Shown here piece after piece: positions 31,164 to 59,741 of a stretch of 64,000 bases of DNA (positions are counted from its first letter, which is position 1; each line of letters begins with the position of its first letter). Source of the DNA: a virus; IMG/VR virus record IMGVR_UViG_3300009285_000883, positions 1-64,000 of that record; one strand, given 5' to 3'. A model generated the notes under the pieces. It was not told the origin of the DNA, did no database searches, and was given only the letters and a program-made list of their open reading frames with translations. The position numbers and the translations under genes were made by a program.

Positions 31164-31690
31164 AATGGACGCTCTATCGTTCTGTTTCAATCGCGAAGAC
31201 TGGCTGCGCTCAAAGGTTATGATTCAGTCCAACAGCTTGGCTGCGCTCGTTCTTTATGGTTCAGTCTGAGAGAATGACTACGATCTGGCATTTTCGTTCC
31301 ATCATTGAATCTGACTTCGTTCTTCTATTGAGGTTCAATCCCACGGAATGGCTACGTTCATCACCGATGCTTCAGTCCCGTAAATTGGCTGCGATCCCAG
31401 AAGTTGTTTCTGTCCTTTGGTTTGTCTGCGATCGGTCAAGATGTTTCGATCAGGAGTTTTGGCTGCGATCCCAAGGCGTGGTTCTATCGCCCGAATAGGC
31501 TGCACTCTCTGGCAATGATTCAGTCCTGGACTTTGGATACATTCTCTCGACATGGTTCGATCAACCAATTTGGTTGCGCTCAAAGGGACTGGGTATCCGC
31601 AGGCTTGGCTGCGTTCAACATTGCTGGTTCGGTCTGCGGGCTTGGCTGCATTCGTCTTGTGTGTTTCTGTCGAGAAGCATGATTGCGCTC
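31164..31690. repeat. 37-bp bipartite degenerate repeat array 1 (about 14 units)
   Basis: The unit is block A, G-N-TTC-NN-TC (9 bp), eight free bases, block B, TGGCTGCG-N-TC (11 bp), nine free bases. A blocks start at 31184, 31221, 31258, 31295, 31332 and so on every 37 bp to 31663, with one 2-bp shortening near 31591. Spacer sequences differ in every unit while their lengths are fixed. The array begins with a partial B block (31164-31174) close to the ATPase start and its last B block ends on the stop codon of the gene at 31689. Confidence 0.92.
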
Positions 31691-31934
31691 ACTGTGTTGT
31701 GCGAATCTTCTTCAGTGCCTGCTTCGCCTCACGTGCCAAATTCATCATCACTTCAGGGTCATACACAGATCCCTTCAGTGCGTTGTGCATGCGAAGCACA
31801 AACATGCGCAAATGTTGCAGGTCTTCCAAGGCTATGCGCAGTTCCTCGTTGACGATCGGCAACTCCTTAGCAAGATGGTCTCGCTCGTCGCGGAGATGCC
31901 GTATCCAAGCAGCGTCAACTTTTTGTGTGGCCAT
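31689..31934 (-). CDS. Coiled-coil protein between repeat arrays, 81 aa
   Basis: Helical throughout (HLRDERDHLAKELPIVNEELRIALEDL pattern, given only in part), with a Lys/Arg C-terminus. The ATG at 31934 has GGGAG eight bases upstream, and that site coincides with the first partial B block of array 2. The stop codon lies in the last B block of array 1. Unrecognised. Confidence 0.5.
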   Translation of the reverse strand: MATQKVDAAWIRHLRDERDHLAKELPIVNEELRIALEDLQHLRMFVLRMHNALKGSVYDPEVMMNLAREAKQALKKIRTTQ

Positions 31935-31935
31935 A

Positions 31936-32012
31936 AAAATCGCTCCCAATGCGTGTTTCAATCATTGAACTTGGCTGCGCTCACGCTCTAAGATTCAATT
32001 CCTGAGCATGGC
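31936..32012. repeat. 37-bp bipartite repeat array 2 (two units)
   Basis: Partial B (31936-31946), then A GTTTCAATC (31956-31964), B TGGCTGCGCTC (31973-31983), A GATTCAATT (31993-32001) and a B start TGGCT that runs into the stop codon of the gene at 32013. Same spacings of 8 and 9 as in array 1. Confidence 0.85.
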
Positions 32013-32201
32013 TTAATGACGTTGCAGATAAACGAACCAGTTCGGCGCAGGTGTCCCTCCCCAAACGGTTCCATCCTGACGCACTAAGAACACCGGTATG
32101 TCGCGCTTGCAAAACGGACAGATGCTGTTCTTTGGAGACTCGGGCTTGCGGTCGCTCTTTTCAATGACACGACCAGTAAAGTGCCTGTAGTTGACACACA
32201 T
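32013..32201 (-). CDS. Small protein with CPFC motif, 62 aa
   Basis: One CPFC pair at about residue 28 and a Pro/Trp-rich C-terminus. The ATG at 32201 follows GGAGG encoded in the Glu-rich end of the previous gene. Unrecognised. Confidence 0.5.
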   Translation of the reverse strand: MCVNYRHFTGRVIEKSDRKPESPKNSICPFCKRDIPVFLVRQDGTVWGGTPAPNWFVYLQRH

Positions 32202-32204
32202 CAC

Positions 32205-33137
32205 TCACTCCTCCTCTTCGGCAAGAGCTTCCTCCTGCACTTCATCACGCGACCTGCGTTTGACCTTCTCACCTTCCTTGAGGTCGCGCAACGACTTCCC
32301 CGTCATCGGCCAAGGCCAATTGGGAATCTCGATGAAGTGACGGTGATCTCCGGGGCAGTGCTCGAACACGTACGGAACTGGCGGGTCTTCACCAAAGAAG
32401 TCGTAGTACATCACGTGATGCAAGTGAGACAGGAAGATCTTCACTGCAAAGCGGCGCGCACGTGCATGTAGATGGCCTGGAGGAAGCGTACCGTCCTTGT
32501 AGTGCTTGTAAGCAACTGTCGTCTTACCGACCTTCTCAGCACGCTCAGCGGCCAACGTCTTGAACTTCCCCTCACCGCTGGCAGCAATCTCCGCATCCTT
32601 GCGCTGACGATAGAGCTGCCCGTACACAGCCCCATCACGGTTCTGCGTCTTGCAAAAACTTTCTCCGCATTTAAAAGCGCATAAACAGCGAAGGAAAGCA
32701 TTCCACGGACGCGGCTTTCCCTTCTCCCAAACCATCGTCGGGTCCAACCCGGCGAACCTCCAGAAGTGTCCAGCCGTCTTGCACTTGCTCACATCCAAGT
32801 GAGAGAGAAGACCAGCAGAGATTACCGGGCCGATGCCAACCTGAGACTGCATCCACTGCCCCACCGAATACTCGCTCGCAAACGCGCCAAGAGCACGCTT
32901 GATCGCGTTTTCCACACGCGTCATTTCGTCGTTGACCCACATCAAAACGCGGCCCGGCTCACCTGCGCCAAGCGAGCGCAACTGGTTCGCAGTCGAAATC
33001 CTGTAGGCTTGGATACTGTAAAAGTTATCGACGAGATAACGAGCCTGCGCGCGATCCATGAGCCTCGACGCGGCCATGAGATCCTTTGTGAGTTTACGTG
33101 CGATTTCGATAGGTGTGTCGTAATCACTTCTGTCCAT
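32205..33137 (-). CDS. IS110-transposase C-terminal-like phage protein
   Basis: The 310-residue protein has an N-terminal helical region (1-95), then GIGPVISAGLLSHL (101-114, a helix-hairpin-helix), then HFWRFAGLDP (124-133) and RPWNAFLR (143-150). A helical tail contains HLHARARRFAVK. This order matches the C-terminal (Tnp_20-type) domain of IS110 transposases. The N-terminal DEDD nuclease domain is absent, so it cannot be a complete transposase. Similar stand-alone proteins occur in other phages. It lies between repeat arrays 2 and 3. Confidence 0.7.
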   Translation of the reverse strand: MDRSDYDTPIEIARKLTKDLMAASRLMDRAQARYLVDNFYSIQAYRISTANQLRSLGAGEPGRVLMWVNDEMTRVENAIKRALGAFASEYSVGQWMQSQVGIGPVISAGLLSHLDVSKCKTAGHFWRFAGLDPTMVWEKGKPRPWNAFLRCLCAFKCGESFCKTQNRDGAVYGQLYRQRKDAEIAASGEGKFKTLAAERAEKVGKTTVAYKHYKDGTLPPGHLHARARRFAVKIFLSHLHHVMYYDFFGEDPPVPYVFEHCPGDHRHFIEIPNWPWPMTGKSLRDLKEGEKVKRRSRDEVQEEALAEEEE

Positions 33138-33170
33138 TTCAAGTCTCCTGAGGTTTGTCTACGAATCGTC

Positions 33171-33608
33171 TTAAAAGTTGTTGTCAATCGCGGCCTGAAC
33201 TACTGACAGCGGAATGGAACGACGCACCAGTTCCGCACACTCGCGGCGTGCTGTGGCGCGCGCGGCAGCGGCATCGGCAGCGGCATAGGCATAGGCAGCG
33301 GCAGCGGCAGCGGCAGCGGCCTTGCGAACTTGTTCGATAGTCGCCTCACCGCGCGTCCATGCTCGTGCCATCTCAATCGCCGCGCGTGGTCGATCCTCTC
33401 CCTCAGGCACGTACTTCAATGCCGTCTCGGCGCAGTCGCACGCTGCCAATACGACCAACTTGCGATCTACTCCGACGCGCGCCGCAAACCACAGCATCCA
33501 ATCGCCGCGCTCGCATTGCGCGTAGGCTTCCTCCAGCGTCTTTCCATCACACCAATTCTGCGCGTCGCAACACGCATGCAACTTGGACAGTAACCTTGAT
33601 AGGTCCAT
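33171..33608 (-). CDS. Imm5-like helical protein with alanine tract, 145 aa
   Basis: WMLWFAARVGVDRKLVVLAACDCAET and KYVPEGEDRPRAAIEMARAW (shown in parts) are the signature of a family often labelled putative immunity protein, common in phages. After VRKAAA a tract of Ala with Tyr and Asp (about 98-118) is encoded by GGCAGC/GGCATA hexamer repeats (33264-33320). The tract length probably varies between isolates. The function is unknown. Confidence 0.65.
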   Translation of the reverse strand: MDLSRLLSKLHACCDAQNWCDGKTLEEAYAQCERGDWMLWFAARVGVDRKLVVLAACDCAETALKYVPEGEDRPRAAIEMARAWTRGEATIEQVRKAAAAAAAAAYAYAAADAAAARATARRECAELVRRSIPLSVVQAAIDNNF

Positions 33609-33627
33609 TTCAAATCTCCTAAGTTAG

Positions 33628-34231
33628 AAAAAACGCTCCACCAAACTGCTTCAATCATTCCACTTGGCTGCGATCTGCAATATAGATTCACTAGACACTT
33701 TTGGCTGCACTCGTCTCCTACGGTTCTGTCCCGAAATGTGATTTCGATCACACGGCATGATTCATTCGTAAGACTTGTCTGCACTCTCCCAAAATGCTTC
33801 TTTCAGTTCATATGATTACGTTCCGTGTTGTTGCTTCTGTCGAGGCAGATGGCTTCGTTCATCTACGCTGGTTCGTTCGCCTTCCACGGCTTCACTCGCT
33901 CCGCGTGATTCGATCTTCTGGTGAGGTTGCGTTCGTGGCGATTGATTCATTCGTTTTCCCTGGCTGCACTCCGTGACTGTGTTTCATTCATCGACGAAGA
34001 TTGCGTTCCAACAGTATGATTCCGTCTTCGATCGCGACTTCGATCCTATGGTTTGCTTCTATCAACAAGAATGGCTGCATTCTGGGTTTATGGTTCATTC
34101 CTAAATCTTGATTTCGCTCCGCATATCTGTTTCAATAGCGCGGCTTGGCTACGCTCATCGTCAATGCAAACTCGGTGGTCCTGGCTGCGCTCTGGAGGTT
34201 TGTTGCGATCCTGTTATGTGGCTAAGCTCAG
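33628..34231. repeat. 37-bp bipartite degenerate repeat array 3 (about 16 units)
   Basis: Same unit as array 1. It starts with a partial B block (33628-33638), the first full A block is GCTTCAATC at 33648, and A blocks follow every 37 bp to about 34202, with one 1-bp shortening near the end. It fills the whole gap between the genes at 33608 and 34232. B blocks vary more here (TGATTTCGATC, TGGCTTCGTTC, TGGCTGCACTC), but the terminal TC and block lengths hold. Confidence 0.9.
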
Positions 34232-34507
34232 CTAGGAGATTGTGATTCCAGGGTGATTGTTGTTCTGGTTGAACACACAGTTTTGAATCGAGACAAACGG
34301 CTTCGCTGGTTCCAATGCTTTCGCAAGCGACTGGCACGCATGGGCGACAGCTACAATTGCTTCAGCGCGTTTGTCCTCGTCCATCTGCTTTCCAGTTTCC
34401 AGCCAGATTCCAGGGAACTCTTTGCACAACGGTGATGAAGCAGCGTCGACCTTGTTTTCTGTCTTCGCGGTTCGTCGTCGTGGTTGTGCAGGTTTCTTTT
34501 TTGCCAT
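34232..34507 (-). CDS. Hypothetical protein, 91 aa
   Basis: Basic N-terminus (MAKKKPAQPRRRTAK), then a helical centre. Unrecognised. It starts 56 bp before the recombination gene, in a gap holding a GCTGCC/GGCAGC hairpin (about 34535-34556). Confidence 0.5.
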   Translation of the reverse strand: MAKKKPAQPRRRTAKTENKVDAASSPLCKEFPGIWLETGKQMDEDKRAEAIVAVAHACQSLAKALEPAKPFVSIQNCVFNQNNNHPGITIS

Positions 34508-55651: not shown

Positions 55652-56107
55652 TCACAATCGTGTTTCTTGCACAAATGGCCGGATGCACAACGCACACGCG
55701 TCAAGGTTGTCATGCTTGAGTCGGTTCCAATCCAGCACTTCCTCGTGCTCCACCTTGAGCGTATACACGTCACCGGAAGTCACTCCTGTCAGGGCGCCCT
55801 TCTCGACGAACTTACGCCTGATCGTTTCCCTCCACGTCAGCAGTCGGTCGAGCAAGTAATCCTTGTCGTTGTCGTTGTTGACTATCATCGTCACAGCGCA
55901 GCCATATCCAACCGCTTCACGAGCAGTCGTACCGCCCGAGTATCGCTCCTGCGATGGATGGACCGTGATGCCGGGATAGTAGTTCGACCCATCATGCGGG
56001 CGGCGGCGGATGACCACGCAATTATCTGGCAGGCCGGTCAGGTCGAGCGCGCGAATCACATCGCGGACACCTTCCAAGCACTGCATAAAGATAGACACAC
56101 CGGCCAT
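55652..56107 (-). CDS. Tail terminator / neck-like protein, 151 aa
   Basis: Mixed alpha/beta with LDRLLTWRETIRRKFVEKGALTG; size and position between adaptor and tail tube suit a tail terminator. Weak family evidence. Confidence 0.5.
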   Translation of the reverse strand: MAGVSIFMQCLEGVRDVIRALDLTGLPDNCVVIRRRPHDGSNYYPGITVHPSQERYSGGTTAREAVGYGCAVTMIVNNDNDKDYLLDRLLTWRETIRRKFVEKGALTGVTSGDVYTLKVEHEEVLDWNRLKHDNLDACALCIRPFVQETRL

Positions 56108-56110
56108 CGT

Positions 56111-57286
56111 TTACTCCCCGAGAACGTTCACGTTACCAATGCGGTCGCGCGCCTCGTAAGACTGCGGCACCTGATCAATTCTCCGATCCGAGTCCTTCGC
56201 CTCAAGCAGTGCTCGCTCCGCCAACTGCAAGCGTTCGATGCGATCCTTAGAGTCACGTTTCGTCAGGATCGCAAACGCCGACTCGCAGAGACGCTGATAG
56301 GCTGTCAGCATCGCATTCGTCTCCACGTCGATCGGATCGCTGACCGTGAACTTGACAGCCGAGATCGCGGCAGCGGGCGCAGCGTCCAATGTGCAGGACG
56401 TACCGTTCGAGGCGACCGACACGATGGTTCTCTCGTCCGTGTACGTGTTAGTCGTGTCACTAAGACCACCGAATACGTTATCGGGTTCGTTCGCGCTCGA
56501 CCCAAAGCGAATAATGCACCCGACATGAGCCTGCGTGAAAGCACCCGTGGTGATGCTGCACGTTGTCGATCCGCCAGTGACCGTGACTGTGCCGGTTGAA
56601 TACTTCTCAGTCACAAGCGGGCGTGGCGAGCGCTGGAAGTCGTAGCGAAACACGAGCGCCGAGTCCGGTGGCGGCAGGAACACCAGCGACATGTTGTTGA
56701 TGTAATCGCTGTCTCCCGTCACGTAGGCGTACTCGGGATCTCCCGGTTCCGCAGAATCGGACACCGAATCGCGTGACGCCTGATCGGGAAACACCACGTC
56801 CAGTGCTTCGTCCTGGGTGACGTTCCAAAGCTGACCCATCGTCTTGAACCCGACAGGCAGCGGATACTCGTCGCGGTAGATCGAGTAGACCGTTAATGCC
56901 GCTACGTCCGCACCGGGATTCACGTTCGCGTCAAGCACGACGTGAGTTGAATCGACGTAGCTTTCAACGGGATAAGCCACGCCAGCAATGAGCAGTTTCC
57001 CGAATGCAGCCCACGATGGGAACGTTCCACCTGTCAGCGTGACGAGTCGCTCAGAGGCACCGCCTGTATGGTCATATGCGAGCGTTCCCGTTGCATACTT
57101 TGCAACCGTATTGATGTACCGCGTGCCGTTGTACATCGCCCACGCATGCGCCGTGTGCAACGAACGCAACGCCTCCTTTGCGGCGCGTTTCGCCATCCGC
57201 AACGGGCGACCTTCGCGCGCGTCGTTATACACGTCGAGAATATGCTCAACGATGTCTTGGTATGTCCAGATTTCGGTTGTTGCCAT
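56111..57286 (-). CDS. Head-tail adaptor-like protein, 391 aa
   Basis: Helical first 60 residues (YQDIVEHILDVYNDAREGRPLRMAKRAA in part) as in adaptor proteins that bind the portal, then a beta-rich insertion with GTVTVTGGSTT and a helical end (RIERLQLAERALLEAK). It overlaps the upstream gene by one base (TAATG). The adaptor idea agrees with its place between fibre and neck genes and is moderate. Confidence 0.55.
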   Translation of the reverse strand: MATTEIWTYQDIVEHILDVYNDAREGRPLRMAKRAAKEALRSLHTAHAWAMYNGTRYINTVAKYATGTLAYDHTGGASERLVTLTGGTFPSWAAFGKLLIAGVAYPVESYVDSTHVVLDANVNPGADVAALTVYSIYRDEYPLPVGFKTMGQLWNVTQDEALDVVFPDQASRDSVSDSAEPGDPEYAYVTGDSDYINNMSLVFLPPPDSALVFRYDFQRSPRPLVTEKYSTGTVTVTGGSTTCSITTGAFTQAHVGCIIRFGSSANEPDNVFGGLSDTTNTYTDERTIVSVASNGTSCTLDAAPAAAISAVKFTVSDPIDVETNAMLTAYQRLCESAFAILTKRDSKDRIERLQLAERALLEAKDSDRRIDQVPQSYEARDRIGNVNVLGE

Positions 57287-57477
57287 TACTGTGCCCTATG
57301 CTGATCTGGAACCGTTCCAACCATTCTCGCGCTGTCCACTGCCACACGCGCTGATATGCGGCCATCACCAGTCAACGCTGATGCGCGACGGCCATCACCA
57401 ACTGCATACAACGGAACTGCTGGCGCTGCAGCAGCGCTCGCACTCCAATCTAACAACATCAGCACCGCAGGCAGCAT
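57286..57477 (-). CDS. Small Ala/Gly/Asp-rich protein, 63 aa
   Basis: A hydrophobic start (MLPAVLMLLDW) followed by AVGDGRRASALTGDGRISARV, partly encoded by two copies of CGGCCATCACCA. The TAATG overlaps at both ends argue that it is translated. Unrecognised. Confidence 0.45.
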   Translation of the reverse strand: MLPAVLMLLDWSASAAAAPAVPLYAVGDGRRASALTGDGRISARVAVDSARMVGTVPDQHRAQ

Positions 57478-58640
57478 TACGCGACCTCCACGTAGGTCAC
57501 AGCCCAGATCACCGGGGTTGCCGCACCCAGATTGATCGCGAGTGCCTCGTTGACCGTGTCGGTCTGAAACCAGCCGCCTTGATTAAATGGCATCACCAAT
57601 CCAGCAGGTCCACCGACGCCATCCATGTCGAGCGTGATCTTGTTCGTGCCGTCACCCAGCAACATGTAATCAGCGTTGTACAGGTAGAGCACCACTGCTG
57701 TGGCACTGGTGGCTAACAGCGAAAGAGCCAGCACGCGAATCTTCTTGTCCGTCACCGCTGCGATGATCGTGTTGGCACCCGAGGCCGTCGCAATCCCACT
57801 GAGCCGCTTGATCGTGCAGGCCGTCGTGCCATCGTAGGCTGCACTGGTTGATGCTTGGCTGATCACACCGCCAATCGTGTTGGTGCCCGCCGAGATGCTC
57901 GTCACGTCCACGTCGCCAATGTCCACGCCGCTATTTGCCGCGAGCTTGCCAATGGCCGCAGTTCCAGCAGGCAGTGATTCACCGAACTTGATGTCGCCAA
58001 TGTACGTGGCGTCGGTGATGTTATTGGCGGGCACCATCGACAGCGAAGCAGCCATCGCCTGCATGCCCAAGTTGCCGGAGGGCAGGCTCACGATGTCAAC
58101 ATTGCCGATGTTGTTGTCGCCTGCGGGAAGTGCGTTGGTGATCGACGTGACCGCACCCACGGTCGTGACAGTGGCCAGCGTCTGTGCCGCAGCGACGTTG
58201 ATTGTGCCGATGACCTTCGTCGTCTCGGCAGCCAGAGTGGCGTCTACTGTGAGCGATCCGCCGTTGTCGTCAACGCTCACCACGCCCGTGGAGTCGGTGG
58301 CCAGCGTCACACGCACGGCTGCGGCTTCCGTCCCTGCACCAATCGGTACAGACGCACCGCCTAGTTGCGTGATGTTGAACCCGGCACCACTGATGGCATT
58401 GTCGATGAGCTGCAAAGCTGTGACAGCCGGATCGTCACTCGCAAGCGTCATACGCTGTACGCCAGCCGCTACGGCACCCGCTCCACCTACGATCTGGGTA
58501 GCGGTCCAGGCACCCTCGCTGCCGCTGATGATGAGTTGGAAAACACCCGATGCGATCGCGGTGTCACCGGAGAATGTGAGCGAGGCCCCAACAAATGTGG
58601 AGCCGCCGACCCCGGCATTGCAAACGAAGTTGTCACTCAT
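57477..58640 (-). CDS. Beta-repeat virion protein, 387 aa
   Basis: Almost entirely short strands with Gly, Thr, Ala and Asn (VTSITNALPAGDNNIGNVDIVS in part, ATSATAVVLYLYNADY). N- and C-terminal parts look globular. A decoration or fibre protein is likely. It starts one base after the stop of its upstream neighbour. Confidence 0.5.
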   Translation of the reverse strand: MSDNFVCNAGVGGSTFVGASLTFSGDTAIASGVFQLIISGSEGAWTATQIVGGAGAVAAGVQRMTLASDDPAVTALQLIDNAISGAGFNITQLGGASVPIGAGTEAAAVRVTLATDSTGVVSVDDNGGSLTVDATLAAETTKVIGTINVAAAQTLATVTTVGAVTSITNALPAGDNNIGNVDIVSLPSGNLGMQAMAASLSMVPANNITDATYIGDIKFGESLPAGTAAIGKLAANSGVDIGDVDVTSISAGTNTIGGVISQASTSAAYDGTTACTIKRLSGIATASGANTIIAAVTDKKIRVLALSLLATSATAVVLYLYNADYMLLGDGTNKITLDMDGVGGPAGLVMPFNQGGWFQTDTVNEALAINLGAATPVIWAVTYVEVA

Positions 58641-59741
58641 TTATCCACCTATGATTTTTGCGCCACCACCACCGCCTGCCGCAGTAATATTTCCGCTATC
58701 CGAGTCGAGTAGCATCGACATCCACGGAACATGCGTATTCGTCTCTGCAAATGATGGTGGCGCACCAGTTGCATCCGTCGTGTACGTCCGCTGCCATTCG
58801 CCAAGCCATAGACACGCCCGGCTATCTGCGTTGTCGTGGCACGTAGCATAACCGAGAGAGTAATAATTGGACGCATCACCCGCAGCACCTGAGTGACGGC
58901 ATGTGATTCTGTACTGCGATGACTGGTCTAAAACGCGGCTCGCCGTAAATAATGCCATTGTCTGAACGGTCGATTGGATATTCCCGACTAGCACCACCTT
59001 GCTGGTGTCGATGAGAGTCGTGCCTTTGTAAAGTCGGAACTGAACGCCGCTCCCAGGCGACCCTACGATCCTTACATTGCCACACACGCCAGCAAGAACG
59101 AACTGCCCATTAGCGGGAGTCGTGAATAGAGCGCCGTCCTCTCGGTTGCTGTAAATCGCGTACGAGGCAGAACCTGACGACGATCCCGACAGCGGCATCC
59201 CACTAAAGCCATCCGAGTACTCAAGCCGCAGTGATCCGGTGCGATATCGCACACTCGTAGCCCACGCAGTGCCGGCATCCAGCGTTTGCACGGACTTCGT
59301 TGGACCAACAGACGAATAGTGACCGGTCGCATCGCTACACACTAGAAACGTAGGGTAGTTGCTGGCTGGTGTTCCTGTCGTGTTTTTGAGCACAATCCAA
59401 TACTGCGCGCCACCCGTCAATGCGTAGCTGAGTCCAGTAAACTCGACCCAGGCCGCTCCGGTTGGGAGGGCCGTCACCGTGGAGGTGGATGCCAGTGACG
59501 TACCCGGCACACCGTTGCTATCGCTGAATATGTGGCACTCTAGGCCAGTCAGCGTCCCCGCCACAGCCGATGCGTACGCGAGCACCTTATTGAGCGTTGC
59601 GCCTCCAGGTGGCGCGAGAAACGCGATCCCCAGCCATGCGTTCGCAGAATTGAGAACGTATGACGTAGTAGACGGGTACTGAATAGCATGACTAGCAGGC
59701 CCAACCCAAATCTGATTGTGGTAGTGGTACCCGAATCCCAC
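58641..59741 (-). CDS. Beta-sandwich virion protein, 366 aa
   Basis: Three beta-rich parts, with Gly/Ser linker GSSSGSASYAIYS and an extreme C-terminal GGGGGAKIIGG run. Composition of an adhesin-like tail or fibre protein. No family recognised. No gap to the next gene. Confidence 0.5.
   Translation of the reverse strand: MGFGYHYHNQIWVGPASHAIQYPSTTSYVLNSANAWLGIAFLAPPGGATLNKVLAYASAVAGTLTGLECHIFSDSNGVPGTSLASTSTVTALPTGAAWVEFTGLSYALTGGAQYWIVLKNTTGTPASNYPTFLVCSDATGHYSSVGPTKSVQTLDAGTAWATSVRYRTGSLRLEYSDGFSGMPLSGSSSGSASYAIYSNREDGALFTTPANGQFVLAGVCGNVRIVGSPGSGVQFRLYKGTTLIDTSKVVLVGNIQSTVQTMALFTASRVLDQSSQYRITCRHSGAAGDASNYYSLGYATCHDNADSRACLWLGEWQRTYTTDATGAPPSFAETNTHVPWMSMLLDSDSGNITAAGGGGGAKIIGG

Follow-up and report, generated by a model that had tools for sequence, protein, structure and literature searches.

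TIGR-Tas systems, in which strings of very small guide-RNA units (TIGR arrays) serve an RNA-guided DNA-binding protein, Tas, encoded nearby, were described in 2025 (Faure et al. 2025, PMC12045711). According to the main text of that report, TIGR arrays consist of two distinct alternating repeats of 8-12 nt with short variable spacers between them, and typically begin and end in truncated edge repeats; arrays of 5-15 units are the most frequent, and a terminator after the array is called only typical. The array RNA is processed to 36-nt tigRNAs that are bound by Tas and whose spacers pair with both DNA strands; in SpTIGR each tigRNA carries 16 nt of spacer (PMC12045711).

We analysed a stretch of 64,000 nt (the window, positions 1 to 64,000) of the 71.6-kb virus record IMGVR_UViG_3300009285_000883. 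Between about 29 and 37 kb the genes lie on the minus strand, and three repeat arrays occupy gaps between them. These repeats are an example of the recently described system and not a new kind of element: the phage very probably carries a TIGR-Tas system that lacks a nuclease (TasA type), with its arrays as cassettes in a tightly packed operon. Here we describe the anatomy of the arrays, the identity and fold of the Tas protein, the strand that arrays and genes share, the rule followed at their junctions and the slot conserved in a relative.

Arrays and Tas protein of the window

Read on the minus strand, the arrays alternate an 11-nt edge repeat, GAGCGCAGCCA, with a 10-nt loop repeat, GATTGAAACA, each followed by an 8-nt spacer, for a unit of 37 nt. 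Array 1 (31170-31690) is parsed into 14 loop-centred units of ~37 nt with 8-nt spacers, array 2 (31941-32014) into two units, one with a degenerate loop, and array 3 (33634-34229) into 16 units. Over these 32 units the conserved repeat columns hold 0.5-2 bits of information, and the spacer columns all hold 0.3 bits or less. A pattern of 1.5 units has 17 copies in the window versus 0 in 100 shuffles; Tandem Repeats Finder, run on the window, did not detect the arrays. Edge and loop repeats both start with GA and end with CA, as they do in the relatives, and these shared ends can be recognized from their sequence as box C and box D ends. At the 3' end, all three arrays stop in GAGCG (31170-31174, 31941-31945 and 33634-33638 for arrays 1, 2 and 3), 8 bases from the nearest loop repeat. 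This is the 3'-truncated edge repeat that closes TIGR arrays. The 5' end is a truncated edge in array 2 and a full edge in arrays 1 and 3. An earlier sequence-only reading had likewise placed a partial block at the gene-start side of every array, but with nine bases to the next block; its description was otherwise correct save for the choice of strand, since arrays and flanking genes read on the minus strand. No terminator-like site was found 3' of the arrays on the array strand, promoter and terminator scans returned sites no more frequent than in shuffles, and Rfam and tRNA scans of the window found none.

All three arrays lie within 1.1 kb of a gene (tas, 32205-33137, minus strand) for a 310-aa Nop-domain protein. 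This protein matches NCBIfam TIGR_Tas (NF052498) at 174 bits, against a cut-off of 100 bits, as well as phrog_4285 and, by sequence, the solved TasR and TasH (PDB 9mty, 1.3e-10). Its AlphaFold model (pLDDT 91), built from 53 relatives in place of a poor earlier model from five sequences, resembles TasH (Z 20), TasR (Z 18.8), IS621 (Z 13.6) and Nop5 (Z 7.4). The closest folds to the Tas core are thus the solved TasH structures (21kl, 9vzx, 9w04), whose HNH domain is absent here. Indeed, the model aligns only from residue 64-66 of TasH and residue 112 of TasR, just past their HNH and RuvC domains, which argues for a TasA-type protein. Family profile searches gave no HNH or RuvC match, and the N-terminal HNH or RuvC domain of the TasH and TasR subtypes is absent from both protein and model. 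By sequence match and predicted fold, then, this is a Tas protein of TasA type. PHROG 4285 names the family transposase and NCBIfam endonuclease; neither name suits a Tas without a nuclease.

The genes flanking the three arrays are all on the minus strand, the strand on which the arrays read. Between arrays 1 and 2 lies an 81-aa gene of unassigned function (31689-31934), and between array 2 and tas a 62-aa Cys-containing (CPFC) gene (32013-32204) for which a PHROG search gave no match. A 145-aa Imm-5-like gene (33171-33608; Pfam PF21805, 5.6e-10) separates tas from array 3, and a 91-aa gene (34232-34507) precedes array 3. A GCGGCA hexamer repeat (33262-33320) encodes the Ala-rich stretch of the Imm-5-like gene; its counterpart in the relative G004 is far larger (58288-58917). 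In a host search, the phage DnaB was <60% identical to every cultured record, and the search thus assigned no host.

The locus thus shares with TIGR-Tas of the TasA type, as set out in the main text of PMC12045711 and in NF052498, a nuclease-less Nop-domain protein carried by a virus, edge and loop repeats in alternation, random spacers and array ends with truncated edges. The usual TIGR-Tas spacers are 9 nt in a 36-nt unit, whereas here they are 8 nt in a 37-nt unit; SpTIGR-TasH of Salicola phage CGphi29 has the same 16 nt of spacer per tigRNA. Other differences from the published main text are that the arrays are split over three gaps of one operon, that stop codons are built into array ends, that no terminator follows the arrays and that the relatives G001 and G006 have six arrays each. 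CRISPR arrays also place variable spacers between repeats. In contrast to them, the repeats here are of two kinds and only 10-11 nt long, the spacers are 8 nt, and turnover occurs at internal units, not only at one end.

Junctions between arrays and genes

The first edge of array 1, GAGCGCAATCA, shares its GA with the TGA stop (31689-31691) of the 81-aa gene. Array 2 opens with a 5'-truncated edge, AAGCCA, which takes its AA from the TAA stop (32013-32015) of the 62-aa gene, and the first edge of array 3, GAGCTTAGCCA, starts 2 nt past the TAG stop (34232-34234) of the 91-aa gene. At the other end of array 2, the terminal GAGCG and the last spacer bases form GGGAGCG, a ribosome-site-like sequence just 5' of the ATG at 31934 of the 81-aa gene. 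The GAGCG end of array 3 sits 25 nt 5' of the start codon at 33608. From arrays 1 and 3 to the next start there are 34 and 25 nt, each with its own AGGAG; only array 2 itself supplies the ribosome site. The sequence-only reading had already noted the two shared stops and the ribosome site within the partial block of array 2, and had run array 3 from near the start of one gene to the stop of the next, all of which we confirm. Its statement that the arrays fill their gaps exactly goes a little too far, given the 34 and 25 nt left before the starts at arrays 1 and 3.

When the gaps of relatives were inspected, the stop-codon junction recurred. Among 45 loci with distinct arrays, a count by eye gave 16 in which (G)CCA/CCG, the box C remnant, directly follows the tas stop; we estimate from base frequencies that chance would give ~1.6 of 45, for loci that are related and not independent. 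In 7 more of the 45, again by eye, the stop stands in for the three opening bases of the first repeat. A stop-to-array distance of 11-12 nt (3-4 bases plus an 8-nt spacer) is found at tas or other genes in G001, G002, G004, G006 and G008; non-tas cases occur in G001 and G006. The earlier suggestion that the unit is read together with gene boundaries fits these observations: the guide strand is the coding strand of the abutting gene here and in 75 related loci, and stop sharing recurs.

By analogy with the described system, the arrays would be transcribed with the operon and their RNA cut within the edge repeats to tigRNAs of 36-37 nt, roughly one unit, with two spacers each; cutting of the mRNA inside units is thus expected. 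The tigRNAs would be loaded on a Tas dimer, and spacer A would pair with one strand of the target DNA and spacer B with the other, as in the literature. Tas would then bind, and probably bend, the target without cutting it, and would most likely keep a competing element or a host locus from being replicated or transcribed. An array would need only the box C remnant (CCA) at its 5' end and the box D remnant (GAG) at its 3' end, and could therefore run from a stop codon up to the leader of the gene that follows, which would explain why the arrays, as cassettes in a tightly packed operon, fill gaps. A functional role for the junction itself is conceivable but rather doubtful. In such a role, upstream translation would end exactly at the array, ribosomes would be kept off the guide region and, where the gene is tas, new Tas would load its own nearby transcript; truncated edges could also act as ribosome sites of the gene that follows, which would couple guide processing with expression of the operon.

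Arrays, slots and spacers in relatives

A strict two-unit pattern occurs in eleven stretches of eight IMG/VR contigs and has no copy in cellular genomes, and cultured phages gave no blastn match to array DNA from two relatives. In all eight contigs except the 14-kb G006, tas adjoins an array. A Tas profile search found 9 relatives in genomes and 237 in viral contigs; 80 of the latter were retained. Dual-repeat arrays were parsed in 75 related tas loci (leaving out L090, a false array), with units of 34-38 nt, mostly 36, and none in the shuffled control. The arrays of these loci are all on the tas strand and mostly directly beside tas. A contrast with the published sizes is G002, where ~102 tandem tigRNA units fill 3.8 kb (L025:11536-15340) beside a single gene, far above the 5-15 units given as most frequent in the main text of PMC12045711. 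Coding by the G002 array was considered and rejected: one plus frame has 7 stops versus 23 +/- 4.5 in spacer-shuffled copies, but plus is the antisense strand there, and no frame is free of stops. Of the six arrays in G001, some are tens of kb from tas; they extend over 56 kb (L021-L024), one of them reads on the opposite strand, and the search for tas in G001 yielded a single gene.

The nearest relative, G004, is 68-78% identical in nucleotides over the aligned parts. Its gap between an AAA gene and tas is array sequence throughout, ~26 units, and the 81-aa and 62-aa genes are absent; relative to arrays 1 and 2 of the window, this slot reflects either an insertion in the window or a loss in G004. 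Its counterpart of array 3 likewise has its first edge two bases after a stop codon. The two phages thus have the slots in common but not the small genes: arrays stay in place while small genes are gained or lost. The Tas of G004 (protein P0001, L032:16055-18253, that is, G004 56055-58253) has an intein-like insert at a conserved site, starting CHPTTLVITKRG and ending VADGIAVHN before C. Those of G002 (L025:15352-16347) and G007 (L036:8931-10109) have extra Cys-containing or charged inserts just ahead of the conserved TAGH-W motif; the G007 gene looks interrupted but forms one reading frame of 392 aa.

Runs of spacers, with their order kept, are shared by relatives with tas genes that are 87-99% identical. 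Between anchors the shared spacers differ at ~3% of positions and the repeats at 1.2%; such near-intact spacers are as expected of selected guides. Gain and loss occur in internal blocks, in which, beyond single spacers, even numbers (i.e., whole units) are commoner. The window and G004 have no intact spacer in common. We searched for targets in which spacer A is followed, after 0-2 bp, by the complement of spacer B, as in the published geometry. Against their own genomes (1071 pairs, 19 genomes), spacer pairs matched no better than control geometries, and against 1.2 Mb of related phage DNA there was no excess over the controls; the two sets together are a small part of what a phage meets. 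A search over nine contigs gave 13 matches of 15/16 versus 4-9 in controls, an excess that we read as noise because the larger sets show none.

Other readings and the meaning of the system

Could the arrays be DNA-binding sites of a phage protein, such as a partition site, an origin or operator arrays? Regular spacing, conserved half-motifs and random spacers would also suit protein-bound DNA. Binding sites, however, would not account for arrays always on the tas strand, or for truncated ends that match those of TIGR arrays, and mere filler would not need to be inherited intact and in order between relatives; we regard this reading as very unlikely. The sequence-only reading had proposed that the unit grew out of gene boundaries. 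In that case the repeat would have arisen from gene ends (stop plus ribosome site) and would serve at operon boundaries to regulate translation or the processing of mRNA. The repeats do share bases with stop codons and with one ribosome-site-like sequence, and the junction recurs. Yet the partial blocks are the truncated edges that close TIGR arrays in the main text of PMC12045711, the repeats, with their box C/D ends, correspond to the edge and loop repeats of tigRNAs, and units of the identical kind lie beside many unrelated genes, up to ~100 of them beside one gene in G002. Moreover, in G004 a single array occupies the slot and the two small genes are missing; the arrays are therefore cassettes among operon genes rather than outgrowths of gene ends. 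An origin from gene ends therefore seems extremely improbable.

The PHROG name transposase and a weak Pfam match to Transposase_20 (18.9 bits, against a cut-off of 21.3 bits that it does not reach) might point to an IS110-type transposon with a bridge RNA, and the Nop-like RNA-binding fold is indeed shared with the IS110/IS621 transposase. The model, however, lacks the N-terminal RuvC-like domain of IS110 transposases and aligns with IS621 only from residue 125, the TIGR_Tas match is far above its cut-off, and long dual-repeat arrays stand in place of one bridge RNA. This reading has next to no chance of being correct. We therefore retain a TIGR-Tas system of the TasA type.

The junction at the stop codon, the scattering of arrays over one genome (G001, G006), unit-wise internal turnover and a named phage with an equal arrangement are apparently unreported in the main text of PMC12045711. 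The named phage is Microcystis phage Mvi-JY20 (PP438412.1), which has an unannotated Tas homologue (L166:3019-3970; 24.5% identity) and, right after the TAG stop of that gene, a dual-repeat array of 36-nt units. The 2025 description of TIGR-Tas left open its natural role, its targets and the way in which spacers are gained, and the present phage and its relatives form a set for testing them: the window and G004 have the array slot in common but not the spacers, spacers come and go in internal blocks and not only at one end, and the phages' own genomes give no match above controls. Mvi-JY20, with its Tas homologue and array, could be studied in culture.
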